NCBI GenBank assembly: GCA_947361225.1
Contig: CANAIK010000018.1
Span: forward strand, 1-33,022
Source: an uncultured bacterium
Lineage (GTDB): Bacteria > Cyanobacteriota > Vampirovibrionia > Gastranaerophilales > Gastranaerophilaceae
DNA: 33,022 nucleotides
Reading direction: 5' to 3'
The notes below the pieces were generated by a model. That model was not told where the DNA came from. It saw only the letters and a program-made list of their open reading frames with translations, and did no database searches. The translations under genes were made by a program, and so were the position numbers. Of the stretch, positions 1,944 to 29,231 are shown piece after piece (the stretch's first letter is position 1; the number at the start of each line of letters is the position of its first letter).

Positions 1944-2663
1944 TTAAACTTTTAAATTATTGCTATTTGTAAATGCCATATAATTTTTCATTGTTAAAGG
2001 TTTTTTGTTTGCTCTAATGAGTTGTCCGGGTTTTAAATGACTCGGATCAAAATAAGGCATATACGGTTTTTCTTCCAATGAAGGGTTTTCTTTTTCCCTG
2101 TGTTTTTGAACAAAATAAGCGCTAACATCACGAATAATAGGAGTAAGAACAGCGCATCCTACAACAGCTCCGATGAATGCTCCTAAAACACCTGTACCGG
2201 CTTTTAGACTGTTTTTGTAATCCAATCTTGCTGCATCGGTTAAATTTTTACCTTCAAAAATTGCTGCATCGGTTAATTTTCCACCTTCAAAAAAGGTATC
2301 TTTCATTGATTGGATATATTTATCGTCTTTTTTAAATAACCCTTTGCTTTTTTTGTCGATTTTTTTCTTAATAAATTTGAGAACATTCTCGTCTTTAATT
2401 TCGATTTTTTCTGCTGCTCTTTGTAAAAATTTAATGATTTTAGATGTCATTAAATAATAAATACCGATATTTGCTACCCCTGTAACGGCTCCAGCGGGAA
2501 CAAGGAATTTTTTATCTTCCTTGGATGTATTTTTATCAACCGCAGCAGCGCAAGTGTTGCTAATTGCAGCAAAAATCATTCCTGCAGCATTTAAGACAAG
2601 CAGTGCTTTTCCTGCGTTTTTAGATGGATTACAAGATTCTAATATTTTAGAAAAATCAGGCAT
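1944..2663 (-). CDS. Lineage-specific membrane protein of unknown function
   Basis: 239 residues, not recognised. Hydrophobic segments are visible near residues 19-41 (ALLVLNAAGMIFAAISNTCAAA), 53-72 (VPAGAVTGVANIGIYYLMTS) and 155-180 (AGTGVLGAFIGAVVGCAVLTPI), separated by a basic, Lys-rich central part. That centre contains a tandem 11-residue repeat, GKLTDAAIFE then GKNLTDAARLD, mirrored in a 33-bp DNA repeat around 2228-2295. The ATG at 2663 overlaps the stop of the upstream gene by 8 bases and is preceded by AAGGAGG, so the two genes are translationally coupled and probably work together. It lacks the N-terminal MKI/FKG motif found on its partner. Confidence 0.7.
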   Translation of the reverse strand: MPDFSKILESCNPSKNAGKALLVLNAAGMIFAAISNTCAAAVDKNTSKEDKKFLVPAGAVTGVANIGIYYLMTSKIIKFLQRAAEKIEIKDENVLKFIKKKIDKKSKGLFKKDDKYIQSMKDTFFEGGKLTDAAIFEGKNLTDAARLDYKNSLKAGTGVLGAFIGAVVGCAVLTPIIRDVSAYFVQKHREKENPSLEEKPYMPYFDPSHLKPGQLIRANKKPLTMKNYMAFTNSNNLKV

Positions 2664-3252
2664 TTTTTACCTCCTTATCATTAGAGGTGTTTTTTGAAAC
2701 AAGATTGGTTATTTTTTTGTTTATATAATTAACCAAAGGAATGTCCAACAAGAAATTTGTAAACATCATAACCAAAATTGCACTTGCGCCGCCTATTGAT
2801 TTTCCCCAAGCCTCTGCGTTTTCTTTATATTTATATAAATTTTGCGCACTGCTTAATTTTTCAGGATTAATAATATCGGCTATTTTAGAACCGGCTTTTT
2901 CTCCCAGTTTTGACATTAATAAAGTAGAGGCAAATATGCATAAAGCTCTTATTGCAACCCCTGTAATTGTTCCGCCGACTGCTTGAGCGTGGGTTCTTAT
3001 TGCTTGGGTTTTAGAACTTTGTCTTGTTCTATTATCCTTTTCGTTTGTTGCTTTTGTTATAACTTCACCGATTCCGATATCAATAGCCGGTGAAACTACC
3101 GCTTCTGCGCTCGACATTACAATTTTTTGCGCAACAACCGAAGCTCCCGCAAGTCCTGCAATTCCAACCTGATGTTTTGAGATGAAATTGAGCGCAGTGT
3201 CTGCTGCTCCTCCTTTAAAATTCTGTTGTTGTCTAATGCTGTTTATTCTCAT
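2656..3252 (-). CDS. Lineage-specific membrane protein with N-terminal MRI...NFKG motif
   Basis: 198 residues from the preferred ATG at 3252, giving MRINSIRQQQNFKGG. An ATG 18 bases upstream would add MDFTKT, but the start at 3252 matches the conserved start of other proteins here and follows a GGATT leader like theirs. Hydrophobic stretches appear near residues 28-46, 94-116 (GGTITGVAIRALCIFASTLL) and 150-170. The protein is small, alanine/glycine-rich in the membrane parts and not recognisable as a known family. It forms a two-gene unit with 1944-2663 and is divergent from leuA. Confidence 0.7.
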   Translation of the reverse strand: MRINSIRQQQNFKGGAADTALNFISKHQVGIAGLAGASVVAQKIVMSSAEAVVSPAIDIGIGEVITKATNEKDNRTRQSSKTQAIRTHAQAVGGTITGVAIRALCIFASTLLMSKLGEKAGSKIADIINPEKLSSAQNLYKYKENAEAWGKSIGGASAILVMMFTNFLLDIPLVNYINKKITNLVSKNTSNDKEVKNA

Positions 3253-13877: not shown

Positions 13878-14459
13878 TTAATAATTGTTTAATAAACTCA
13901 AATACGGTCTGTATTTAGTTTTGTCCGGTTTATTTTCATCATTTAGAATTTCTTTTGCATCAATTAGAATTCTGTTTTTATCGACAATGTAATATTTATC
14001 CATTTTGTCTGATAAAACAACAGGATTCATTTTTAAAGCCTCTGCTGCTTCAGCTCTTGTTGGGAATATATGGAATTTTTTTGTTTCTGTATTAATTAGA
14101 ACCGCAGGTTTTTTTGATGAGTTTCCATATCGTTGATTTTCTGCGATTTTGTTTCTTTTTTCAATTTGAGCTAATTTTTTAAGCACATTTGCTTTAATTT
14201 CTTCTTTGTCAAAAACCAGTTCCCCATTTTCTTCTTTAATATTTAAATCCCTCATAAAAAGGTGATTTGTACTACCGCCGTATTGTCTATCGTTTTTAAT
14301 GCATTCGTTTATTATGCTTATTGAAAATCCTGTTTTTTTGGAGGCTTCAGTTGTGCTGTTGTATTTGTCAATTGTTCTTTCTTCTAAATTAATATGAAAA
14401 ACCGGTTTTCCTGCTTTAAAATTCATTGGTTTAGAAAAATTTACAGGTGCTATTCTCAT
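13878..14459 (-). CDS. NUMOD-like modular protein without nuclease domain
   Basis: 193 residues starting MRIAPVNFSKPMNFKAG after a good AAGGA site. Two modules are visible: residues about 19-70 (PVFHINLEERTIDKYNSTTE..., ending YGGSTNHLFM) and about 117-165 (PAVLINTETKKFHIFPTRAE...). Each has a short beta strand ending in I-[ND], then x-EA[AS]-x-x-x-G helix-turn-helix-like sequence, then a G/Y-rich strand. This is the pattern of nuclease-associated modular (NUMOD) repeats, which bind DNA in homing endonucleases, but no GIY-YIG or HNH motif is present. It is a paralogue of 14489-15415 and 26377-27321. Function unknown; DNA binding is an inference. Confidence 0.7.
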   Translation of the reverse strand: MRIAPVNFSKPMNFKAGKPVFHINLEERTIDKYNSTTEASKKTGFSISIINECIKNDRQYGGSTNHLFMRDLNIKEENGELVFDKEEIKANVLKKLAQIEKRNKIAENQRYGNSSKKPAVLINTETKKFHIFPTRAEAAEALKMNPVVLSDKMDKYYIVDKNRILIDAKEILNDENKPDKTKYRPYLSLLNNY

Positions 14460-14488
14460 AAAAAAATTCCTTTCTTGTAGTTTAATTG

Positions 14489-15415
14489 TTAAAATTCTTT
14501 TGTGGCAAAATCTTTTGTTATAGAAACGATTTTTTGTAATAATTTTTCATCTAAGATATTTCCTTCTTTGGTTGATTTTTCAAAAAAATAAGCCGGGATT
14601 AGAACAAAACCCGAACAACGATATTTTTCTTGTTCAACGCAATTGTAAATCACGTCCTTGTCGACATCCAAGAATGAAGAAACGGAATCTAAGTTTTTGA
14701 ATTTTTTTACAGTTTCGTTTTTATCGATTAAGTAGAATCCATCAATATTTTCATTCATTGTATCTATATTTACATATCTGTGCAGAGTTTCTTTTGTTGA
14801 AGTTGCCTCTTTAAAACCTTTTTGTTTCAATATATCCAAATAATGGGAATATTTTGTCTTATCGAGTTTACCTTCCTTATTTATAACTTTTTCTAACGGG
14901 ATTAAAATTTTTTTATCATCAACAATAAGATATCCTTTTACATATACTCTTGCTCTTAAATATTCTTTGTTGAATCTTAGATCAGTGGCAGCTTCGCCTT
15001 TGTTAGGATATCTGCGAGCTTTCTTTGTTTCGATATCCATAAGCACAACCGGTACAGGATTAGTGCCTACAATCGTATTTTTTTCAAGTCTTTGTTTTGT
15101 TTCTTTTATTATTTCAAGTTTTTTAATTATGGATTCTTTGATTTCTTCTTCGTCAAAAACTAACTCCCCGTTTTCTTTTACTTCGATATTTAACTCGTCT
15201 TTTTTCATAAAGACATAATCAAAACTGCCGGTTAGTTGTTTGTTGGCATAAATGCAATCTCTTACCGTGCCTGCAGTGAATCCGGTATCTCTTGAGGCAT
15301 CAGCGCAGCTTTTGTAATATTTTATTGTTCTATCTTTAGTGTTAATCGCAAAAACCGGCAGACGACCACCGCCTTTATAATGCATTTGCTTTGGGGCAAT
15401 ATTTCTAATTTTCAT
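14489..15415 (-). CDS. NUMOD-like modular protein, three modules, no nuclease domain
   Basis: 308 residues, start MKIRNIAPKQMHYKGG with AAGGAA upstream. Three modules: about 18-70 (PVFAINTKDRTIKYYKSCAD...), 120-168 (PVVLMDIETKKARRYPNKGE...) and 222-275 (GFYLIDKNETVKKFKNLDSV...). The first two align one-to-one with the two modules of the downstream gene, including the linker with ENGELVFDEEEIK, so the shorter gene looks like a duplicate lacking the third module. No catalytic nuclease residues are visible. It lies 54 bases after nifS and 29 bases before the shorter copy on the same strand, possibly read through from the nif pair. Function unknown. Confidence 0.7.
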   Translation of the reverse strand: MKIRNIAPKQMHYKGGGRLPVFAINTKDRTIKYYKSCADASRDTGFTAGTVRDCIYANKQLTGSFDYVFMKKDELNIEVKENGELVFDEEEIKESIIKKLEIIKETKQRLEKNTIVGTNPVPVVLMDIETKKARRYPNKGEAATDLRFNKEYLRARVYVKGYLIVDDKKILIPLEKVINKEGKLDKTKYSHYLDILKQKGFKEATSTKETLHRYVNIDTMNENIDGFYLIDKNETVKKFKNLDSVSSFLDVDKDVIYNCVEQEKYRCSGFVLIPAYFFEKSTKEGNILDEKLLQKIVSITKDFATKEF

Positions 15416-15469: not shown

Positions 15470-16657
15470 TTACATTCCAAGTTCTTTTAATTCTTTTTGA
15501 AAAGGCGAAATCCTCGCCAATTTTTCAATAACCTTGGGAATTTCAATAAGTGCGTAGTCAATTTCATCTTCTTTTGTAAATTTAGATAAAGAAAAACGAA
15601 TTGAACCGTGCAAGGATGTAAAAGGAACTTTTTGCGCTCTTAAAACGTGACTTGGATCTAAACTTCCGCTTGTGCAAGCACTCCCCGAGGAAGCGTAAAT
15701 TCCTAAATCGTTTAAATACAAAAGAATTAGCTCCCCTTCGATGTATTCAAAACCGATATTTGTCGTATTAGGAACTCTGGAGCTGCTTTTGGAGTTTAGT
15801 TTTGCATTCTTAATTTTTTCTAAAAGCCCCGATTCCAGTTTATCTCTTAATCTTCGAACTTCTTTATTCTCGAATTCAAGAGCGTTTTTTGCAAGTTTAG
15901 CAGCCTCCCCTAAACCAACAATAAAAGCTGTGTTTTGGGTTCCTGCTCGAAGTGAGTTTTCTTGATGTCCTCCTAAGATAAAAGGGTCAAAAAGAGTTCC
16001 TTTTTTAACATACAAAGCCCCGATTCCTTTGGGTGCGTGGAATTTATGACCTGAAATCGAATAAAAATCAATATCCGAGTTATCCAATTCAATTGGAATT
16101 TTTCCTGCTGCTTGAACTCCGTCTACAAAAAATTTCACATTTTTGTTGATTTTTTTAACCTCAGCTGCAATTTCTTTAACAGGATAAATCGTTCCTGTTT
16201 CATTGTTTGCGTGCATAACGGATACAAGGATTGTTTTTTCGTTTACTTTGTTTAATAAACTTTCAATATTCAAATCCCCACATTCGTTAACCCCAATATA
16301 GCTTGCGCTATAGCCTTTGCGCTCTAAATCTTCATAAACCGATAAAACACAAGGATGTTCAACCTGGGTTGTTATTATATGGTTATTTTCCCTTGTTCCG
16401 TAATGAGAAACAATCCCTTTAATTGCAGTATTTGCGCTTTCTGTAGCGCAAGAAGTAAAAATTATTGAACTTGAATCACTGACCCCTAAAAGTTCTCCTA
16501 CTTGATTCCTTGCTTGTTCAATCGCTTTAGCGGTTTTTCTTGCAGGGTTATACATACTTGAGGGATTTGCGTAAAGTTCCTCTAAATAAGGAATCATTTT
16601 ATCAAGCACTTTTTTATCTACTTTTGTTGTTGCGTTGTTATCTAAATATATTTCCAT
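15470..16657 (-). CDS. nifS: Cysteine desulfurase, NifS/IscS family
   Basis: 395 residues. PLP enzyme removing sulfur from L-cysteine for Fe-S clusters. N-terminal YLDNNATTKVD, the substrate-site HANNETGTIYP (149-159), PLP lysine K205 in SGHKFHAPKG, and the catalytic persulfide Cys in SSGSACTSGSLDPSHVL (C328), which is the short-loop class I arrangement of NifS/IscS. Begins 2 bases after the nifU stop, so both are cotranscribed and the enzyme should feed the scaffold protein next to it. Confidence 0.93.
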   Translation of the reverse strand: MEIYLDNNATTKVDKKVLDKMIPYLEELYANPSSMYNPARKTAKAIEQARNQVGELLGVSDSSSIIFTSCATESANTAIKGIVSHYGTRENNHIITTQVEHPCVLSVYEDLERKGYSASYIGVNECGDLNIESLLNKVNEKTILVSVMHANNETGTIYPVKEIAAEVKKINKNVKFFVDGVQAAGKIPIELDNSDIDFYSISGHKFHAPKGIGALYVKKGTLFDPFILGGHQENSLRAGTQNTAFIVGLGEAAKLAKNALEFENKEVRRLRDKLESGLLEKIKNAKLNSKSSSRVPNTTNIGFEYIEGELILLYLNDLGIYASSGSACTSGSLDPSHVLRAQKVPFTSLHGSIRFSLSKFTKEDEIDYALIEIPKVIEKLARISPFQKELKELGM

Positions 16658-20091: not shown

Positions 20092-20168
20092 GGGCTATTA
20101 GCTCAGGTGGCTAGAGCGCACCCCTGATAAGGGTGAGGTCCCTGGTTCGAGTCCAGGATGGCCCACCA
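20092..20168 (+). tRNA. tRNA-Ile (GAT)
   Basis: 77 bases including an encoded CCA end. Acceptor stem GGGCTAT/ATGGCCC, D-arm AGCTCAGGTGG, anticodon stem-loop CACCC-CTGATAA-GGGTG with anticodon GAT, and T-arm GGTTCGAGTCC. The anticodon arm is the same as in E. coli tRNA-Ile(GAT). Here it stands alone, not in an rRNA spacer, and is immediately followed by a terminator and then by the accessory region. Confidence 0.97.
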
Positions 20169-20204: not shown

Positions 20205-20651
20205 TGAAAATAAGTGCTTTGCGACACTACGAGAAGTTCTAAGATATAGACACCAAAAATAAGCAATCGCCGAAATACAATAATAACAAAGATTATAAAA
20301 GTTCAAGTTATTATTTGACAGGACAGTTGCGAAAGGGCTGTTAAAATGCGAAATTCCCCTCAAACCCCCTGCGTGCTTGAAAATTAGCTGTCGGAAGTAT
20401 TCCAAAATTCACATTTTAATTGTCTTGAAAAGTCCTTGTGTTGTCGAAATTTGTCCGAGCTTGGACAGTTGGCTCAAAACTTTATATAGCCGACTTTTAG
20501 AACGTGTTTAGTTCTTGGGCGGTTAAAATGCGAAATTTGGTACAGGACTTTTGAAATTTTAGTCGGAAATTTTTACAAAAAAGTCGGAAATTAAAATTCT
20601 CTCCTTGGCAATGTTTAATACTAATTGTATTTTTGTAGTAATATAGCAAAT
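20205..20651. other. Gene-free, repeat-rich spacer after the tRNA
   Basis: About 450 bases with no convincing gene; short open frames on the minus strand have no ribosome site or recognisable content. It contains several short repeats: a 16-bp direct repeat (20340-20355, 20522-20537), GGACAGTTG twice (20321, 20463), AGTCGGAAATT twice (20561, 20582), and a TGTCC/GGACA inverted repeat near 20451-20466. Its GC content looks higher than that of the genes that follow. It may be a remnant of an integrated element or a non-coding regulatory region. Confidence 0.5.
20335..20537 (+). repeat. Direct repeat pair (core GTTAAAATGCGAAATT)
   Basis: The core 16 bases are identical at 20340-20355 and 20522-20537. 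Including the preceding five bases (GGGCT/GGGCG) the copies match at 20 of 21 positions. Period is 182 bases. No matching third copy was noticed elsewhere in the window. Confidence 0.8.
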
Positions 20652-21695
20652 ATGTATAAAGATTTTAATGATTTATTTTTCAATACAACCATAAGTCCAT
20701 ACATGGACGTCGCTTTAAAAAATGAAAAAATAATTGAAATAGAAAAATTATTAAATTCAATCAAACCCCAAAAATTATTCAGATATAGAAAATTTACAGA
20801 TTATAATTTAAATGATTTTGATAAAGATGTTATTTCATTATCTAGACCATATTCGTTTAATGATCCATACGATGCACTATTAAAGGTTGATAAAGAAAAG
20901 TTTCTTAGTAGTATTTTTAATATTAGGCATAAAGAAAAAATTGTAGAATTTATAAATAAATATCGGAGTATTTTTGATGCTTTTAATATTGAAGAACCTC
21001 ACAAAACCAACATATTAAAATTTGTTCAAAATATAGAAAACATTCCAAATGAAAACATCACGCAATGTTTTGAAGAAAATAAACCAATTGTTGATTATTT
21101 TTATGATCTAGCAAAAAATGAAGCATTTGCATATTTAAAACAATCTCCAAGAATAGCTTGTTTTTCCGAAGATGTTGCATCAACTCTTATGTGGGCGCAT
21201 TATGCTGATTCGCACAAAGGCTTTGTTATTGAATATAATTTAAATGAATATGTTGGAGCATGTATAAATTGTGATAAAGAAAAAACTTGTACAGATAAAC
21301 ATTGCGAAAGAATATTGCCAGTGCGTTATTCTGATAAAAGATTTGATGCTACCTCATTACTAGTATATGCCATAAATATGAAATTATATTCTTTAATATC
21401 TCCTAATCCTATAATCCCTATGGACGATGAATTAATAGTGCAAAAATCTTTAATTACTAAATCTTTGGACTGGAAATATGAGAAAGAATGGCGTTTAATT
21501 TCATTCAGTAAAAATTATTCTTCTAAACAAATTCAACTTAAACCAAAGGCTATATACTTAGGTTTAGAAATGTCAGATATAAATAAAAAAATTTTAGTAA
21601 ATCTTGCAAAAGAAAAAGAAATTCCAATATATCAAATGAATATAAATTTAGATAGTGAAAAGTATAGTTTAGAATACACAGAATATTTAACTTAA
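20652..21695 (+). CDS. DUF2971-family protein
   Basis: 347 residues from the ATG at 20652; a TTG at 20625 in frame would only add a poor N-terminus. Recognised by the family landmarks: KLFRYRKFTD (41-50), SLSRPYSFNDPYDALL (FNDPYD 69-74), ACFSEDVASTLMWAHYADSHKGFVIEYN (169-196) and the late KSLDWKYEKEWRLISF. The function of DUF2971 is not established to my knowledge; such genes are often met in accessory or defence-associated regions. An unusual insertion after the HKG motif carries C204, C207, C213 and C218 (CxxC-x5-C-x4-C), which could bind a metal. First gene of the post-tRNA island. Confidence 0.75.
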   Translation: MYKDFNDLFFNTTISPYMDVALKNEKIIEIEKLLNSIKPQKLFRYRKFTDYNLNDFDKDVISLSRPYSFNDPYDALLKVDKEKFLSSIFNIRHKEKIVEFINKYRSIFDAFNIEEPHKTNILKFVQNIENIPNENITQCFEENKPIVDYFYDLAKNEAFAYLKQSPRIACFSEDVASTLMWAHYADSHKGFVIEYNLNEYVGACINCDKEKTCTDKHCERILPVRYSDKRFDATSLLVYAINMKLYSLISPNPIIPMDDELIVQKSLITKSLDWKYEKEWRLISFSKNYSSKQIQLKPKAIYLGLEMSDINKKILVNLAKEKEIPIYQMNINLDSEKYSLEYTEYLT

Positions 21696-21751
21696 TATAA
21701 ATACAAAAACTCTTTTTTCACGTATAATTATCTTAACAAAAGCGGGGAAGT

Positions 21752-22029
21752 ATGGCTTCAAATATATTAATTGCAATTAAAAATCTTATAGAAAACCCTA
21801 TTATATCTATAAAATCTTATTATTTTGGTAGAAATAGGGTTAATGGTGTTGGTAATGCTTTAGAAAAATATGTTAAAGATTCACATTTGGTAGATTATAA
21901 AAAAGAACTCATGACACATATTTTGAATGAAAAAATAAATACTATTTTAGAACCAATAGGCTATATAAAAGAGATTACTATACTGAAATTTATGGCAACA
22001 AGGGTGTAGAACTTTTTATAAGGGATTAA
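21752..22029 (+). pseudogene. Remnant of NgoPII-like type II restriction endonuclease
   Basis: An 85-residue frame from a good start (GGGGAAG before the ATG). Its first 45 residues, with SYYFGRNRVNGVGNALEKYVKD, match from memory the N-terminus of NgoPII-family enzymes (GGCC-specific, about 270 residues). After about residue 60 the frame looks out of phase: in the other frame, bases 21940-22029 encode a plausible protein end, ...YKRDYYTEIYGNKG to a stop at 22027-22029. So the gene seems to have lost most of its body and to carry a frameshift. No cognate methyltransferase lies in the window. Family assignment is from the N-terminal pattern only. Confidence 0.5.
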
Positions 22030-22074
22030 TTAAAAAAATATAAAGCGAAAAGATAAAATTTGGAGAAAATTTAA

Positions 22075-22758
22075 ATGAATAACAATGATAAGGCTTGCAT
22101 ATTTATTAGCTTGGTTTTTGTATTTCCAATGATGTTATTTTTGACTGCCTTATTTTTTGATGTCAATATAATTCAAGCTATAAAAGAGCCTAAACTTTTA
22201 TTTAAACCAGTTTGTACAAGCATAACAATAACTGCTTTAATGACTATTTTGCCATTGTTATGTGCGCATGTTGAAACGTGGTTCAAAAAAATCTATAAAG
22301 AAAATACTGAATTTATACAAACTGGTTTAAAATTTAATAGCATTGTTTTTGAAACATTATTTAAAATAATTATTGTTGGAAGTTTTATATTGATTCTCTC
22401 TTATGGATTTATAATTGAGCCCTTATGTAAAAAATTTAACTGGGGAAATGATAATCCAAAAAGCATATTCAGAAAACCTGATTTAATGTATCAAGGATAT
22501 GTGTATGCCTTTCCTTGTCCCGATTTTGAATGCACAAGTAAAAATTATAAGGTTGTTGCAGATATACAGCATGGTGATATTCAAAAAATTTATTTTAAAA
22601 ATGGCGGCTATTTAGAGATAGATAATTGTGATGGAAATGGTTTAGGTGGAGATGATTATTATTGCGAAGAAGCAAAAACTGGAGAAATATGGGGTTTTGA
22701 GTATTATGGAGAATTGGTAAAAAATAAAAATAAACAAAAGCCTTTATTAATTAAATAA
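22075..22758 (+). CDS. Hypothetical three-helix membrane protein
   Basis: 227 residues, unrecognised. Hydrophobic helices near 8-30 (IFISLVFVFPMMLFLTALFF), 45-66 and 95-115 (LFKIIIVGSFILILSYGFII), then a soluble C-terminal domain of about 110 residues with several cysteines (FPCPDFEC, IDNCDGNG, YYCEE) that probably faces outside and could hold disulfides. GGAG ribosome site 9 bases upstream of ATG. It follows the restriction remnant; the two convergent genes downstream have no obvious terminator between them. Confidence 0.6.
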   Translation: MNNNDKACIFISLVFVFPMMLFLTALFFDVNIIQAIKEPKLLFKPVCTSITITALMTILPLLCAHVETWFKKIYKENTEFIQTGLKFNSIVFETLFKIIIVGSFILILSYGFIIEPLCKKFNWGNDNPKSIFRKPDLMYQGYVYAFPCPDFECTSKNYKVVADIQHGDIQKIYFKNGGYLEIDNCDGNGLGGDDYYCEEAKTGEIWGFEYYGELVKNKNKQKPLLIK

Positions 22759-22815
22759 GAATTAATAAAAGAATTTAAGTTATTCAATAGATATTTTAAA
22801 GTAGTTTATAATTGT

Positions 22816-23535
22816 TTAAGTTCGTTCAAATTTTGCATTATTATATTTGCTTTCCCACTTCATTTTGGTTAATGAAGCTTTGATTTCATTAGAATGGTGT
22901 GCATAAATATATTCTTCATTTGGGAATAGTTGACCCCAAAAAAATTCTGTAAAATCAATTACGGTATTTAAAACCCAACAGGCACATGGGTATCTCCAAA
23001 AGCCAAACAATTCACTTGATTCTTGTTGCTTTCTAAGTATTCTATACTTGTTTTTTAATAACATTTCTGGATTTTTATTTTTTTTATAATTTGGTTTTTT
23101 ACTCCAATATGCCTTAAAGTGAACAATTTCATTTCGAAAATCTATAAGAGCTTGAGCATTTTGATATATCTTAGTTCCTTTATTGATGTCAATTCCTTTT
23201 GTATATTTTAAAAAAATATTATATTTTTCCAAAATTGGTTTTCTGTCTATATCAAAATCTTTATATAATTTTTGAATAATATTATATTTATCTAATTTTT
23301 CCTTTAAATTTTTATCGTATTCAATATCATTAATTTTTGAATAAAAAGAATTAATAAATGATTCCAAATAGCATACTGATAATAAAATACAGCTTAAAAC
23401 ATAAGACAAACTGGTATATGTAGCATTGCGATTAGTGTCGATTTTATATGCTTGAATTATCATATTATGTGCTGAATTCAAAAAATCTTGATTTAATTCT
23501 ACAAATGAAGAAACTTCAACTCTAGTTGATGTCAT
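22816..23535 (-). CDS. HEPN-like protein with Rx4H motif
   Basis: 239 residues, preceded by AAGGAAC. An N-terminal helix-rich half with a hydrophobic stretch YVLSCILLSVCYLESFINSF (45-64), a typical first HEPN helix that ends in E-[AS]-x-I-N, and a later helix ALIDFRNEIVHFKAYW holding R134-N-E-I-V-H139. R-[NDH]-x3-H is the catalytic signature of HEPN ribonucleases of toxin-antitoxin and abortive-infection systems. No partner nucleotidyltransferase or MNT antitoxin is adjacent. HEPN proteins lacking RNase activity also exist, so toxicity is an inference. Confidence 0.55.
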   Translation of the reverse strand: MTSTRVEVSSFVELNQDFLNSAHNMIIQAYKIDTNRNATYTSLSYVLSCILLSVCYLESFINSFYSKINDIEYDKNLKEKLDKYNIIQKLYKDFDIDRKPILEKYNIFLKYTKGIDINKGTKIYQNAQALIDFRNEIVHFKAYWSKKPNYKKNKNPEMLLKNKYRILRKQQESSELFGFWRYPCACWVLNTVIDFTEFFWGQLFPNEEYIYAHHSNEIKASLTKMKWESKYNNAKFERT

Positions 23536-23938
23536 ATTGTTCCTTTCTGTACTTGCAATAATTAATAATTATACAATGAAATAATATTTTATAACTCAAT
23601 CTCTCTGTTGGATTTAGTCTCAAATTCAATGACCTCCTAAAATAAAATTAGGGAAAGTTCCCAGTGTAAGAGGACTTGAAATTTAATGCACAATAGTTTA
23701 TAGTAATGATATAGATTATTTTTTTAAAATCAATGACAAAAATTTATATACAAATATAGTTAATTGGTTCATTTTCAAGATGACCTATTGTCAAATCGAG
23801 TGTATAAAATACTCAAATTGGGTGTTATTTGACACAAGTGTTATTTTAATCAACCGAGGGGTGGTTTAGAACCCCTTTTATAACTTTTGAACCGAAATTC
23901 ATAAATTCATTTTCGATTCTTTGTTGTTCTTTTTTTAA
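23536..23938. other. Gene-free interval with several hairpins
   Basis: About 400 bases with no credible coding frame. Visible: the palindromic GGGAA-AG-TTCCC (23651-23662); an inverted repeat TGTCAAAT (23789-23796) / ATTTGACA (23827-23834) enclosing a smaller GAG-TAT/ATA-CTC hairpin; and a terminator-like hairpin at 23857-23880. The structures suggest an untranslated RNA or the remains of a mobile element end. Confidence 0.45.
23857..23880 (+). terminator. Terminator-like hairpin without an obvious upstream gene
   Basis: AGGGGT (23857-23862) and ACCCCT (23871-23876) around an 8-base loop, followed on the plus strand by TTTTATAACTTTT. The T tract is on the plus strand only, yet the nearest plus-strand gene ends more than 1.1 kb upstream, hinting at a plus-strand transcript inside 23536-23856. 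Confidence 0.5.
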
Positions 23939-24160
23939 CTATTTTCTTTTGTCAATTAGTCTTAATATATCAATGTTTAGAGAATTTGCTATTTTATTTA
24001 GTGTTTTTAATGTTATATTTTGTTTTCCTGCTTCAATGACTCCAATATATTTTTCGTGAACTCCGATTAATTCTGCAAGCTGCGCTTGTGTCATACTTTT
24101 TATTGCACGTTCAATCTTTATATTATGAGCAATTCTTTTAAACAATTCTAAATCTTCCAT
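23939..24160 (-). CDS. XRE-family HTH transcriptional regulator
   Basis: 73 residues from ATG 24160 (MEDLELFKRIAHNIK); an upstream ATG would add a hydrophobic, unlikely tail. Single Cro/C1-type helix-turn-helix: MTQAQLAELIGVHEKYIGVIEAGKQNITLKTLNKIANSL. No other domain, so it is a minimal repressor-type protein. It is divergent from the TM2 operon, whose promoter lies in the 124-base gap, and likely controls that promoter and itself. Confidence 0.85.
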   Translation of the reverse strand: MEDLELFKRIAHNIKIERAIKSMTQAQLAELIGVHEKYIGVIEAGKQNITLKTLNKIANSLNIDILRLIDKRK

Positions 24161-24228
24161 AATTAAATAATAGAGTATTATAGCTATATATGAACAATAC
24201 AAAATACCTTAAAATGTAGTATTATATA

Positions 24229-24257
24229 TTGACAATAAAAATATTTTTATGTAAAAT
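24229..24257 (+). promoter_or_regulatory. Strong sigma-70 promoter of the TM2 operon with palindromic spacer
   Basis: TTGACA (24229-24234) and TAAAAT (24252-24257) at the ideal 17-base spacing. The spacer holds the 12-bp palindrome AAAAATATTTTT (24237-24248), a possible site for the divergent XRE protein. GAGAGG (24271-24276) and ATG (24285) follow. Confidence 0.65.
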
Positions 24258-24284
24258 ATTATCAGCAAAAGAGAGGCGCTAAGT

Positions 24285-24569
24285 ATGAAAAAGATGACAA
24301 CCACTGCCCATCTAGCTTATTGGTTGGGTTTTTTGGGAATACACAGATTTTATACAGGCTATAAATTAATAGGGGTTATTCAACTATTAACGCTTGGCGG
24401 CTGTTTAATTTGGTATTTTATAGATAATTTTAGTATTGTATTAAATAAATATAAAGATGCCGATGGCAATCAATTGACCGACTTTAATAAAAAAGTTGCC
24501 AATGTTTATTTGGTGCTTTTAATTATGGGTATAGTTAGCGGTTTGGTGAGTGTAATAATTGATGACTGA
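24285..24569 (+). CDS. TM2-domain membrane protein
   Basis: 94 residues. The TM2 signature is clear: AYWLGFLGIHRFYTGYKLIGVIQLLTLGGCLIW-YFID, i.e. two helices joined by the G-x-H-R-F-Y-x-G turn and closed by W-x3-D. An additional third helix (VYLVLLIMGIVSGLVSVII) follows at the C-terminus. TM2 proteins are small inner-membrane proteins of poorly known function, often next to zinc-ribbon or secreted genes. Its stop overlaps the next start (ATGACTGA), so it is translationally coupled to the anchored protein downstream. Confidence 0.88.
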   Translation: MKKMTTTAHLAYWLGFLGIHRFYTGYKLIGVIQLLTLGGCLIWYFIDNFSIVLNKYKDADGNQLTDFNKKVANVYLVLLIMGIVSGLVSVIIDD

Positions 24570-25449
24570 TGAAAATTTAAATCAAGGTAAAGAAAAGAAG
24601 TCTTCTGGCTGCCTATATATTCTAATAGGTTTGTTTTTGTTTTGTATGTTAATTATTTTTTTAGATTCAGAAGACGAATTTGAAAAATTTGTTTCAAACA
24701 CGCAAAGTGAAAATGAAAACCCGTACCTATATTTAGCAAACAAAGATTCAAAAGAATATTGCATAAACATTGATATTAGAGACTATGGGCTTTCTACTTT
24801 TTGCTCTAAAAGAAATTCAAAAATTGAGGAATTTAGTCATTGTTTTTTTCACGAAACGGGTTTAACAAGCGAATATGCAGAAGAGCTTATTAGCACTGCA
24901 ATGATGTATAACACGGGTTCTGCTTATCAAATTTCTGAAAATTGCGCTGCAGATATGGCAAAAGGAACTGTTTGTATTAAATACCACGGCGATGGGGTAT
25001 ATGAAAAAGATAGAAAAAAAATTGATGCGGATGTTTTGGACATAAAAGCATTAATTGAAGAAGCAAACGAGCTAATGGTTTCAACCCAATGTCTTAATTC
25101 TTTTAAAAAAGATAAAAAAACTCAAGATTGTTCCGATAAAGAAATAAAAAAAATAGAAGAAAAATATAATAATCTTGAAAAATATCAACAGGAAAAGAAT
25201 GCACAAGCAAAAAAGAAAGCAGAAGAAGATAAAGAAAAAAGAATACCGAAAGAAGAAAAATTAGCTAAAAAAATAGGTGTTTCAACCTCTTGTTTGGTTG
25301 TTTATGAAAATAACTACGATTATTTTGATGATGAAGAATTATATACGAATTTAAAAGATAAGTGTAGTAAATCTGAATTAGATAAACTAATTGATTATTT
25401 TGATTTTCATCCAAATGAACATTTAGAAGATTTATCAAACGGGTTTTAA
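24562..25449 (+). CDS. Single-pass membrane-anchored, cysteine-containing protein
   Basis: 295 residues from ATG 24562 (MTDENLNQ), which overlaps the TM2 stop. A short polar N-terminus ends in KKSSGC, one helix follows at about 17-36 (LYILIGLFLFCMLIIFL), and the rest should be outside: an acidic domain with many cysteines (YCINIDIRDYGLSTFCSK, HCFFHETG, NCAADMAKGTVC, STQC) followed by a Lys/Glu-rich coiled coil (about 190-225) and a terminal acidic part with two more cysteines. No known domain recognised. Operon partner of the TM2 protein. Confidence 0.65.
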   Translation: MTDENLNQGKEKKSSGCLYILIGLFLFCMLIIFLDSEDEFEKFVSNTQSENENPYLYLANKDSKEYCINIDIRDYGLSTFCSKRNSKIEEFSHCFFHETGLTSEYAEELISTAMMYNTGSAYQISENCAADMAKGTVCIKYHGDGVYEKDRKKIDADVLDIKALIEEANELMVSTQCLNSFKKDKKTQDCSDKEIKKIEEKYNNLEKYQQEKNAQAKKKAEEDKEKRIPKEEKLAKKIGVSTSCLVVYENNYDYFDDEELYTNLKDKCSKSELDKLIDYFDFHPNEHLEDLSNGF

Positions 25450-25497
25450 TTGCGAGCCGTTAAACTTGTGCGTTTGTTAAATTTAGGAAGGATAAAA

Positions 25498-26190
25498 ATG
25501 TCTGAAAATGATAAAAAAAATAATTCAAACAGCGGTTGTGGCTGTGGATATTTAGTAATAATTGCAATTATAGTTATTATTGGACTGTTTTCTGATTTTG
25601 ATAGCTCAAATAATACTACATCATCTAAATCCATTGCTAATGCCAACGATATTAATAATGCTTTATTTGACGGCACGCCTCCTGGGGATCAAGAAAGACA
25701 AGAAACTGCCGATAAAATTATAACTTCACAGGATTATATTAAAAATAAAGCGGCTCCATTATTCGAAGAAGCAAGAAAAATGAAATCAAGAAGACAAGCC
25801 GGCCTTGAAGCGGACGAAAACGCAATAAAACTAATTGAATTCAAAATAGATAGACTAGATTCCTTGCAAGGTAGTGGCAGTTACGAAGGATTTACCCCGG
25901 TTGATGTTGATATTAAAGCTTTAGAAGAAAACTGCAGAAATAATCCTGAAGTAGATTTTTTTGAGTGTGTAAATAAAAAAAATATTAAAACAGCCGTGGG
26001 ATTGAGATGGGAACACATTAAGCTAAAAGAAACATTGGATAGAAAAGATATTTCACAAGAAGAATTTAAAACTTTAGAAAATAAAATTTTGCAATCAAAC
26101 AAAAGGGTTATAATTGAAGCTGATAAAATTATAAATTTGAAAAAAATACCTTATTATTACGCAGATGAATATATGCCGACGATAAATTAA
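25498..26190 (+). CDS. Single-pass membrane-anchored protein, second of the TM2 operon
   Basis: 230 residues from ATG 25498 with AGGAAGG upstream; a TTG start 48 bases earlier is less plausible. It repeats the design of its neighbour: a short polar N-terminus ending in SNSGCGCG, one helix (YLVIIAIIVIIGLF), a Ser/Asn-rich stalk, then a helical, charged domain with two cysteines (CRNNPEVDFFEC). Apart from the N-terminal architecture the two proteins are not obviously similar. Function unknown; it probably acts with the TM2 protein at the cell surface. Confidence 0.65.
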   Translation: MSENDKKNNSNSGCGCGYLVIIAIIVIIGLFSDFDSSNNTTSSKSIANANDINNALFDGTPPGDQERQETADKIITSQDYIKNKAAPLFEEARKMKSRRQAGLEADENAIKLIEFKIDRLDSLQGSGSYEGFTPVDVDIKALEENCRNNPEVDFFECVNKKNIKTAVGLRWEHIKLKETLDRKDISQEEFKTLENKILQSNKRVIIEADKIINLKKIPYYYADEYMPTIN

Positions 26191-26376
26191 TGTAATTTTT
26201 GTTTTTTATAGCGCAAATTATTTTTTTTAAAAATTAATGGAAAATAATACTCTTTACGTGTTTTTAATTCAATATGAGAATAGATTTTATAAAAAACAAT
26301 ATATATTTACCCACAAAACCGCAAAATAAGGGCTAAAAAAGTCCAGAGCGATAATAATGCTACGAATAATCTCATT

Positions 26377-27321
26377 ATGAATCAACTTTTGTTGGCAAAA
26401 AACTATAATTTAGCGTTTTTAGGAAAAAATGTCCCAAAATCCGTGTATGCAGTGGATAAAGAAATGAATTGCACGTGGTTTCCTTCTGCGCACAGGGCTA
26501 GTGTTGTTTTGGGAATCACTGACCCTTGTATTGCAAAGTGTTTAAACGAGGACAAAAGCACAAAATATACAGGTGATTATTGTTTTGCGCTTGCAAATGA
26601 TATTGAAACAACAAAAAAAGACGGCACGGTTGTTGTTGATAAAAATAAAGTTAGTGAATTAAGAGAAAAAGCAAAAATCGTCAAATTAAACAATGACTAC
26701 ACTGGTAGAAAAGCGATTTATGCGATAAAAGCTGATGATTTGAGCGCAACTCGGTTTGAAAAAAATGCAGCTGCTGCAAAAACTTTGGGAATTTTTTCTA
26801 CAAATATTTCTGCTTGTCTTGCAGGAAAAAGAAAGACTGTAGGTGGTTATTATTTTATTCCTGCGTATAAAATCGAGCTTGAAGACGATAACGAAGAGCA
26901 TAAAGTGGATAAAGAAAAGCTTTTAGCGCAAATTGAAGAATTAAAAAATGTAAAAAAAGAACAAAAAACCAAAAATCCCCCTTTTTCTGTTGAAATTTTT
27001 AAAACCGAAGAAGATTCTTGCAAAATCAAAACAGTTGAAGAAAATAAAATTGAAAAACCTAAAAGTTTAGCGCAACTTACTGAAAATGAGCCTTCTGGGG
27101 CAAAAACAAAAGAAAGTGTTAAAAACTCTTCTTTAGAACGTAAATACAAAAAACCCGGCGCAATATATGCACTTAAGGATAATGGCGATTGTTTAGAATT
27201 TAAAGATTTATACGAAGCTTCTAATTATTTTGAAGTTAACGTTAATTTTCTTTATGAAGTAATTAAAAGTCTTGACGGTAAGTACAAAAATATGTTTTTT
27301 GTTTGTGACAAAGACGCTTAA
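26377..27321 (+). CDS. NUMOD-like modular protein, three modules, possible frameshifted N-terminus
   Basis: 314 residues from ATG 26377. Modules at about 21-75 (SVYAVDKEMNCTWFPSAHRA...), 110-160 (AIYAIKADDLSATRFEKNAA...) and 260-312 (AIYALKDNGDCLEFKDLYEA...), each with the I/V-D ... EA(A/S) ... G ... C-[IL] ... Y-x-F pattern shared with the proteins at 13878-15415. A Lys/Glu-rich linker joins modules two and three. The start AFLGKNVPKSVYAV aligns with FKAGKPVFHI and YKGGGRLPVFAI of the paralogues. The ATG has no ribosome site; an upstream frame at 26274 encodes an M-R-I beginning (MRIDFIKNN) and would join if one G of the GGG at 26330-26332 were removed. No nuclease motif. Function unknown. 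Confidence 0.65.
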   Translation: MNQLLLAKNYNLAFLGKNVPKSVYAVDKEMNCTWFPSAHRASVVLGITDPCIAKCLNEDKSTKYTGDYCFALANDIETTKKDGTVVVDKNKVSELREKAKIVKLNNDYTGRKAIYAIKADDLSATRFEKNAAAAKTLGIFSTNISACLAGKRKTVGGYYFIPAYKIELEDDNEEHKVDKEKLLAQIEELKNVKKEQKTKNPPFSVEIFKTEEDSCKIKTVEENKIEKPKSLAQLTENEPSGAKTKESVKNSSLERKYKKPGAIYALKDNGDCLEFKDLYEASNYFEVNVNFLYEVIKSLDGKYKNMFFVCDKDA

Positions 27322-27372
27322 GTTTTTTTGTGATAAGCTAAAACATATAAACAAAATAGGGGATTAAGATAA

Positions 27373-28175
27373 GTGGATAATGAAGTTAAAAAATGACCTT
27401 TTTGTGGGGCTGAAATTAAAGAAGATGCTAAAAAGTGCCGTTTTTGCAATGAATGGCTGGTTGAATCAAAAGAATCCAAAAAATCTAAGAATAAACAGAA
27501 AATTAATGATTTTTTATTAATTTTGATAAAAAAATTCTCTTTATTTCACTTTCTGTTATAGGAATTCTGCTTTTAATCTTTTTAATAATTTTTTTCTTTA
27601 ACTACATTCCAACTTGCACTTCCAATAGAGTTCAAGATGAGCTTACAGCTTATTTAAAAGAAAAATACCCTTCAATTAAAAATGTGGTTTTAAACGAACA
27701 AGATATTGATATAGTATCAAAGGAAAAAAATGGCTATGTTTGTAAAACCACTGCTCAAGCGGATGATGCCCCGTTTGAAATTGAATATTCATATAAAAAA
27801 ATATCTTTTAACAAATTTAACTTTGATTCTAAAATAATTCTTACTGATTGCTACAATTCTTCAATGTTGAATCTTTTGGGGATTTAATTAAAAAAAAGCA
27901 GTTATTGAAAAATTAATGATTTGGCTTCTGATGTTGAAGTTGAGAACTCGGAAATTACAAAATTTGATGAGAATATTCCAAGTTATAAATGTTCCGCTCA
28001 AGCTATAATTACCGCAAAACCCGGACAAGCTTTTGTACTTAATTATTGGGATAGCACAGACGCACAAAGAAAAATCAAATGCGATATTGAATATAAAAAT
28101 ATTTTTTGTGGAAACGGATATACAAGTTGCGTTAATTTAAACGATGTTACAAATTGCAAATATTATGATGATTAA
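27373..28175 (+). pseudogene. Broken zinc-ribbon membrane protein with two repeat domains
   Basis: Reads as GTG start (27373) after GGGGATTAAG, then DNEVKK-stop-PFCGAEIKEDAKKCRFC: the first Cys of a CxxC-x10-CxxC zinc ribbon is a TGA at 27394-27396. The frame is then lost at a seven-A run (27528-27534); in the other frame a membrane helix (GILLLIFLIIFFF) and one domain (RVQDELTAYLKEKYPSI... to a stop at 27887) follow. A second, related domain (ASDVEVENSEITKFDENIPS... to 28175) appears after at least one more slip. The two domains share a Y-x-C-x(2)-A-x-A pattern and look like tandem repeats. Best read as one decayed gene. Confidence 0.6.
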
Positions 28176-28185
28176 AGGGTGAATT

Positions 28186-29186
28186 ATGGATGAAATAAAA
28201 AACATTCAATGTTCGGTTTGCGGGGAATATATTGCAGAAAATAGTGAAATTTGCCCTTTTTGCAACGAACAAATAAAAAAAGTTGAAACAGAACAAGAAA
28301 CCAAAACTGTTGAGGTGGTTAAGCAAAAAACTCCCAACAATAAGACTTTAATTTTGGTTGTTGTATTAATTTGTCTTTTGTTCTAATTTTAGGGGTGATT
28401 GTTTTTCTTCTAAATAAATTTTCTCCTAAAATTAAAATTACAAAACACGCACCGATTGAAAAAAGCAAAAATCCTTTATTTAAAACAGATTATCAAAACG
28501 AATCAATTGATAAGGCTAAAGAATTATTTAAAAAAGAAGAATGCGACAAGGCAGCTCAAATTTTCGATAGAGAAATAGTTAATAAAGAAAACCCTGTTGC
28601 ATATTATTATATGGCAGAAATTTATAACAAAAGGGGCTATACAAAACTTGCGATTAAAACTTACAAAAAAGCGGATGACAAAAAAGCGAACTTTTTCGAA
28701 CCCAAAAAAAGACTCGCTAGCGCAAATATTGAAATTGGCGAGTACGATGAAGCGCTAAACTACGCTCTTAGTGCGCAGAAAATTAATTCTAAAGATATTG
28801 AGCTCTTAGAAACGCTTTTAGTTATATACAGATACTTTGACAGATACGACGATATTATAAATACTCATAAAAAAATAGTTGAAGTTGACAAAAAGAACTG
28901 TAATTCGAATTATTATCTTGCTGATTATTATATGGAAGAAGATAACAACAGATCTGCGATTCCTTATCTTAAAAATTTGCTTGATATTGGATATAACACA
29001 AATATCGCTTATGCTCTTGCGTCAAGTTATTCAAGTATTGAACATTACATAAAAGCAATTGAAATTCTCGATTTGATAATAAAAAATTACCCTTGGGAAG
29101 TTTTAAGCGCAACATATTACAAAGAAAACCTAAAACTTATAAGAGAAAGATATAATTCAATTCATAAAAAACAAAATTCTGTGTAA
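28186..29186 (+). pseudogene. Frameshifted zinc-ribbon, membrane helix and TPR protein
   Basis: Frame one (28186-28386) encodes MDEIKNIQCSVCGEYI and CPFC, a CxxC-x10-CxxC zinc ribbon identical in spacing to that of the previous gene, a Lys/Glu-rich linker and the first half of a helix ending LVVVLICLLF-stop. Frame two (from about 28375) continues the helix (FVLILGVIVFLL) and then a periplasmic TPR domain: about six helical repeats such as AYYYMAEIYNKRGYTKLAIKTYKKA and NYYLADYYMEEDNNRSAIPYLKN. Adding one T to the TTTT at 28376-28379 restores a single protein of about 333 residues. Start has GGGTGA upstream. It is probably a pseudogene or assembly error; the TPR half could still be translated only if reinitiated. 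Confidence 0.7.
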
Positions 29187-29231
29187 ACCCAAAAAAACTT
29201 CAGCCAGACAAGAAGATTCGGATTATTATAA

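Follow-up and report, generated by a model that had tools for sequence, protein, structure and literature searches.

The 33,022-nucleotide stretch of Gastranaerophilaceae DNA analysed here (the window) encodes three proteins that are built of tandem NUMOD-like modules and carry no recognized nuclease, and larger arrays of the same module are found in related genomes. NUMODs are usually treated as accessories of selfish nucleases. We consider it probable that the array proteins have been retained by the host as nuclease-free, multivalent double-stranded DNA (dsDNA)-binding proteins, with a putative role as regulators or as nucleoid or architectural components, and that they represent the recognition arm of an HNH enzyme resembling I-HmuI or LP65 orf143. 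On this reading the arrays offer a clear and testable case of the DNA-binding arm of a selfish element being taken over by a host and multiplied in nuclease-free form.

Two of the proteins are adjacent on the minus strand. Protein 1 (P0001; 13878-14459, 193 aa) comprises two modules, the first at 14193-14405 (profile match E 3.9e-18) and the second at 13941-14096 (aa 122-173, i-Evalue 1.5e-8), which is divergent in sequence and has a NUMOD fold in the structural model (pLDDT 92-96). Protein 2 (P0002; 14489-15415, 308 aa) has two clear modules, at 15134-15358 (E 8.8e-18) and 14534-14737 (E 5.5e-10), and between them a degenerate module at 14903-15031 (aa 129-171, i-Evalue 0.028) that aligns with module 2 of protein 1. 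These proteins are paralogues with 42% identity over approximately 195 aa, and each reading frame is preceded, at a distance of a few bases, by an AAGGA-like ribosome site. Protein 3 (P0003; 26377-27321, plus strand, 314 aa) is a distant paralogue with two full modules, at 26440-26658 (E 1.1e-22) and 26713-26922 (E 1.4e-22), and a partial third at 27160-27315 (aa 262-313, i-Evalue 9.7e-9). The module counts are those obtained with the profile from relatives, and all three reading frames are intact. A nifS-like cysteine desulfurase (15473-16657, minus strand) lies upstream of and co-directional with proteins 1 and 2 and is regarded as context rather than as a working part of the system. The initial annotation had described two paralogues of two and three modules following nifS and a third protein at 26377-27321, and this arrangement was borne out. 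Just 5' of protein 3 (window 26274-26376), a 20-codon reading frame, MRIDFIKNNIYLPTKPQNKG, begins with MRIDFIKNN at 26274 in another frame, and protein 3's own frame extends open as far back as 26293. A frameshift, either real or an assembly error, may therefore have split the true N-terminus of protein 3 or truncated its annotated start.

Assignment of the modules to the NUMOD group, also proposed from the initial inspection, was confirmed by both sequence profiles and predicted structure. Pfam NUMOD1 (PF07453) matched protein 1 with 24.0 bits and protein 2 with 31.9 bits, each above the curated cut-off of 22.8, and I-HmuI_NUMOD-like (PF22083) matched protein 3 with 44.6 bits, above its cut-off of 27. 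Matches in NCBIfam and PHROGs were to group I intron or HNH endonucleases, with the best stretches toward the C-terminal end of those profiles. Pfam reported no nuclease family in the three window proteins. Among 35 array proteins, I-HmuI_NUMOD-like was found in 32 and NUMOD1 in 29, together with various helix-turn-helix (HTH) families, and no nuclease family occurred among the 25 most frequent of the 31 Pfam families; the earlier proposal that whole proteins are formed of modules with no catalytic partner is thus upheld. An iterated profile over the relatives defined a module of 71 residues with the consensus PVYAIDKNGKYKKFNSRKEAAEALGISKSNISRCLNGKTKTVKGYVFVKASEIEKIDENGEIVVDKEKIKE, the module size within arrays being approximately 75 aa. 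NUMOD proper occupies residues 1-49, and the remaining 22 residues, a short hairpin and the beginning of a long linker helix, repeat with the module.

AlphaFold2 was applied to modules 1 and 2 of protein 3 with a 48-row alignment, and the resulting model (pLDDT 89.5, pTM 0.57) contains two confidently predicted modules that are loosely placed relative to each other with a long helix between them. In comparisons with VIA-align the closest solved structure was I-HmuI (1u3e; Z 8.6, rmsd 3.1 over 60, located at module 2), followed by Paulinella sCTP-23166 (8b6e; Z 6.5, rmsd 1.9 over 51, of 52 residues), I-TevI (1i3j; Z 5.2, rmsd 2.6 over 46) and AcrVA3 (9kja; Z 4.6); structural matches beyond these four had Z below 4 and were disregarded. 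The model of protein 1 (pLDDT 83.6), in which both modules are folded, returned the same top three in the same order, with Z 7.7 for 1u3e (rmsd 3.1 over 64) and Z 6.6 for 8b6e. A search of the PDB with the module sequence profile also placed 1u3e first (E 4.2e-5, 48 residues aligned), and the best match among the viral predicted structures of BFVD was LP65 orf143. The window modules are accordingly predicted to adopt the beta-hairpin plus HTH fold of I-HmuI.

These comparisons suggest a course of events by which the arrays may have arisen. Each module would correspond to the C-terminal HTH-type DNA-binding domain of an HNH homing endonuclease of the I-HmuI or LP65 orf143 type, laid out as a beta-hairpin, an HTH, a strand and a short hairpin, with an acidic stretch running into the long linker helix that would join one module to the next. 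An ancestral module array is proposed to have steered a nuclease; the nuclease would then have been lost and the array duplicated and amplified, so that present-day proteins may hold dsDNA by a succession of individually weak HTH contacts and act as regulators or as nucleoid or architectural proteins. An origin in a phage HNH enzyme is suggested by sequence likeness to LP65 orf143 (YP_164778.1), an HNH homing endonuclease of a Lactobacillus phage and the best phage relative by both sequence and structure. This protein has three tandem modules that score 29-37 bits against the module profile, and it shares an LDKDKLREI-type linker tail with the arrays. It differs from them in its N-terminal HNH_3 nuclease and weak NUMOD4 match, in being phage-borne and in having only three modules. 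I-HmuI itself resembles the arrays in the fold and profile of its C-terminal NUMOD domain (PF22083), but has one module attached to an HNH nuclease. As the DNA-gripping part has been kept and the cutting part is missing, the arrays most likely grip DNA for a purpose of the host.

Putative multivalent binding of dsDNA is the somewhat favoured activity, as judged from fold and charge. The NUMOD half of the module is basic, with a mean charge of +2.8 and a positive value in 84% of 160 modules, and the module tail is acidic (-2.35). The initial annotation had suggested DNA- or RNA-binding regulators, and of these nucleic acids it is dsDNA, not RNA, to which all that is known of the fold points; a regulatory or nucleoid-structuring role would be one way in which such binding is used. 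HTH folds are often repurposed, and the modules might instead serve protein-protein or RNA contacts, so that the arrays would be scaffolds rather than DNA binders. The near-zero or negative net charge of some whole arrays (-1 for L072 and -5 for L063) is in keeping with this alternative, as is the nature of the residues at the expected DNA-contacting positions, which vary greatly and show no particular basic character. We nevertheless regard the scaffold explanation as rather unlikely given the predominantly basic NUMOD half and the fact that all solved neighbours with Z above 4.5 are DNA-binding or DNA-acting proteins.

The expected DNA-contacting positions were taken from I-HmuI, where the DNA patch in the NUMOD domain consists of K139, R149, K151, D154, K157 and R160 (PMC13001698). 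These residues map to module positions 18, 28, 30, 33, 36 and 39, where residues differ between modules more than at most other positions (variability ranks 14, 1, 3, 6, 16 and 2 of 49, p 0.0001); the excess also holds against polar positions only (p 0.002), and there is no specific enrichment of basic residues at the six positions. Such variability would fit modules with different preferences but also an unconstrained surface. A candidate extension of multivalent binding is modular DNA reading, in which each module would have a base preference of its own and arrays of 2-9 modules would read tens of base pairs, regulating or marking chromosomal loci. We consider this unlikely, and give similarly little credence to its evolutionary counterpart, in which a bacterial lineage would have made DNA-reading repeats out of a phage homing endonuclease's recognition arm. 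In a comparison of orthologues, the patch positions were conserved no differently from other variable positions (p 0.39); this attempt to detect a specificity code gave no signal and thus no indication that a sequence code is maintained. If the base preferences of modules proved to be separable, the arrays would be a natural scaffold of a new kind for recognizing DNA module by module.

Related arrays were sought in genomes with a profile built from 43 modules. The 1.9-Mb genome of the window yielded five matches, all within the three window proteins, which are the only such proteins there; the possibility of many copies in this genome was therefore rejected. Across 288 Gastranaerophilaceae genomes, 27 had a match and 16 had at least three modules. 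Of the single-match genomes inspected, some carry HNH or GIY-YIG enzymes of the ordinary kind, and in others the match is to HTH proteins that are unrelated. In a draw of 386 genomes from the phylum, multi-module matches were confined to Gastranaerophilaceae. A degenerate-peptide scan of 84,980 species genomes, the reach of which is limited by the peptide pattern so that relatives elsewhere are possible, returned 12 distinct loci: most belonged to Candidatus Gastranaerophilales MAGs, one to Cyanobacteria bacterium SIG29, and the others to MAGs bearing only the title 'bacterium'. Arrays in the relatives have two to nine modules and reach 792 aa (8-9 modules), with nearly all of the length made up of modules in most of them, and the genes are often adjacent, with up to six side by side. 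The largest cluster (L059:5612-13056, genome G223) contains six adjacent array genes of 3-6 modules each, or 25 modules in approximately 7.4 kb. Expansion of the family within this lineage, as first supposed, is therefore seen in the long arrays of relatives, but its distribution is patchy and its copy number in the window's own genome is low. Most genomes of the window's genus have no array proteins, which are thus dispensable, a point that speaks against the preferred reading.

Loss without function offers a further explanation, in which the arrays are remnants of decaying homing endonucleases, left over after the nuclease was truncated away. Modules of this type typically belong to homing endonucleases, occurrence in 16 of 288 genomes is sparse, and one module of protein 2 is degenerate, all of which would be expected of decay. 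Selection on the arrays argues against it. Orthologous arrays of two relatives (G077 and G185), rather than the window's own proteins, were compared and gave dN/dS values of 0.14, 0.36 and 0.35; these arrays are under purifying selection, with dN/dS clearly below 1. Three of four neighbouring genes in the same pair had lower values of 0.03-0.07 and the fourth had 0.34. The long open frames also contrast with the HNH enzymes of the family, which have at most one detected module, and module 2 of protein 1, despite its divergence, has a confidently predicted fold. Decay consequently appears improbable. An intermediate combining an HNH nuclease with a module array was sought in Gastranaerophilaceae and rejected: the 17 HNH matches found there, in open frames of 57-299 aa, each had no more than one profile-detected module, which counts against the proposed origin of the arrays.

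The initial description of a new class of proteins was too strong, as nuclease-free NUMOD proteins are already known; in view of the Paulinella sCTPs and a Jeotgalibacillus plasmid protein, the arrays are better described as a new tandem variant. More than 200 single-domain sCTPs of Paulinella bind dsDNA (PMC12176269, a review), and sCTP-23166 shares the module fold with the arrays, its family being likewise nuclease-free and expanded in one lineage. Host takeover of the arrays would parallel these proteins in outline. The sCTPs, however, are eukaryotic, nucleus-encoded, one-module proteins of less than 90 aa that are imported into an organelle, the chromatophore, whereas the arrays are bacterial and have 193-314 aa in the window and the greater lengths and module numbers given above in relatives. 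The sCTP structure 8b6e is the second-best fold match of a module that comes from a non-photosynthetic cyanobacterial lineage. JMA_39980 of Jeotgalibacillus malaysiensis (AJD93316.1) has four NUMOD modules in 422 aa and no nuclease domain, but it is a single gene on a 603-kb Bacillota plasmid (CP009417.1; L161:2272-3540) with irregular module spacing and no array expansion seen. TALE, STAR, MOON and pTERF proteins are also DNA-binding tandem repeats and belong to other repeat families (PMC11417379); the main text of that survey of DNA-binding tandem repeats mentions neither homing endonucleases nor HTH repeats. Nuclease-free NUMOD arrays are not described in the titles and abstracts of the NUMOD1 literature found. 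In gut Gastranaerophilales, the arrays account for some of the genes designated 'hypothetical' or misnamed 'endonuclease'.

The N-terminal peptides of proteins 1 (MRIAPVNFSKPMNFKA, 14412-14459) and 2 (MKIRNIAPKQMHYKGG, 15368-15415), both on the minus strand, share the start M-[KR]-I...F/Y-K-G/A, which had drawn attention in the initial annotation. Its presence on these two proteins is correct, but it is not special to array proteins. In the model of protein 1 the peptide is flexible (pLDDT below 50, residues 1-14). The pattern [LIVMN]xF[KGAS..][GASKR] occurs just before module 1 in 20 of 36 array proteins, compared with 3.6 +/- 1.8 in shuffled sequences. Both blocks of the start, in a looser pattern defined post hoc, are also present in 12 of 265 other genes in array loci, compared with 2 of 1060 internal methionines (p 2e-7); with the strict pattern, a random own-genome sample showed no significant excess (5/354 vs 8/1258, p 0.14). 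Carriers with Pfam matches, picked by eye, include a GAPDH-like protein, a GH77 enzyme, an AAA ATPase, a DHH protein and a nucleotidyltransferase. A start of the form M-[KRQN]-[IV]...xF-[KGS]-[GAS] is common to unrelated proteins of these types and a membrane protein, with examples in the window at 2-463, 635-1846 and 2659-3252 (minus strand) and in relatives at L061:3258-4496, L060:192-1982, L061:10212-11621 and L076:14702-15901. From its sequence, the shared start looks as if it were a lineage-specific N-terminal tag attached to enzymes that are complete without it.

An export or targeting signal at this position would make the arrays delivered DNA-binding effectors, similar to TAL effectors. 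The disorder of the peptide in the model, its enrichment in array proteins and its sharing with unrelated proteins could each be read in that way; occurrence of the same start on proteins of core-metabolism type (GAPDH-like, GH77, nucleotidyltransferase and DHH) argues instead for an intracellular function, and we consider delivery very unlikely. Least probable is a split homing system, in which the array would cooperate with a nuclease encoded as a protein of its own and would continue to drive a mobile element: the modules probably derive from homing endonucleases, but no nuclease reading frame was recognized beside the arrays in the loci inspected by gene order and N-termini, an LP65 HNH query had no match in the window's genome, viral contigs gave no matches and many neighbours are housekeeping genes.

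The array genes on the nifS side are surrounded by housekeeping genes: nifU and nifS come before proteins 1 and 2 and pheS comes after them, all read in the same direction and with gene names assigned from the translations. Of the 28 genomes of the genus, 3 have an array directly after nifS (G000, G201 and G507), which places this arrangement at the level of a subclade, and conservation of the position throughout the genus was rejected. Arrays also lie beside nifS-nifU in a genome of another genus (G267), and a second recurrent position, next to mscL-ychF, is shared by two genera (G279 and G037). These positions fit chromosomal inheritance with frequent loss, and insertion hot spots are also possible. 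Phage-borne arrays were rejected, as no relative was found in viral contigs and the phage matches inspected were HNH or GIY-YIG enzymes. A defence function was likewise set aside, PADLOC having returned its generic model for homing endonucleases plus a weak mad1 match in one relative. In the part of the window that includes protein 3, a tRNA (Rfam) at 20092-20165 is followed by mostly unrecognized reading frames from 20600 to 29200, among them a small HTH protein at 23939-24202, and this stretch looks like a genomic island.
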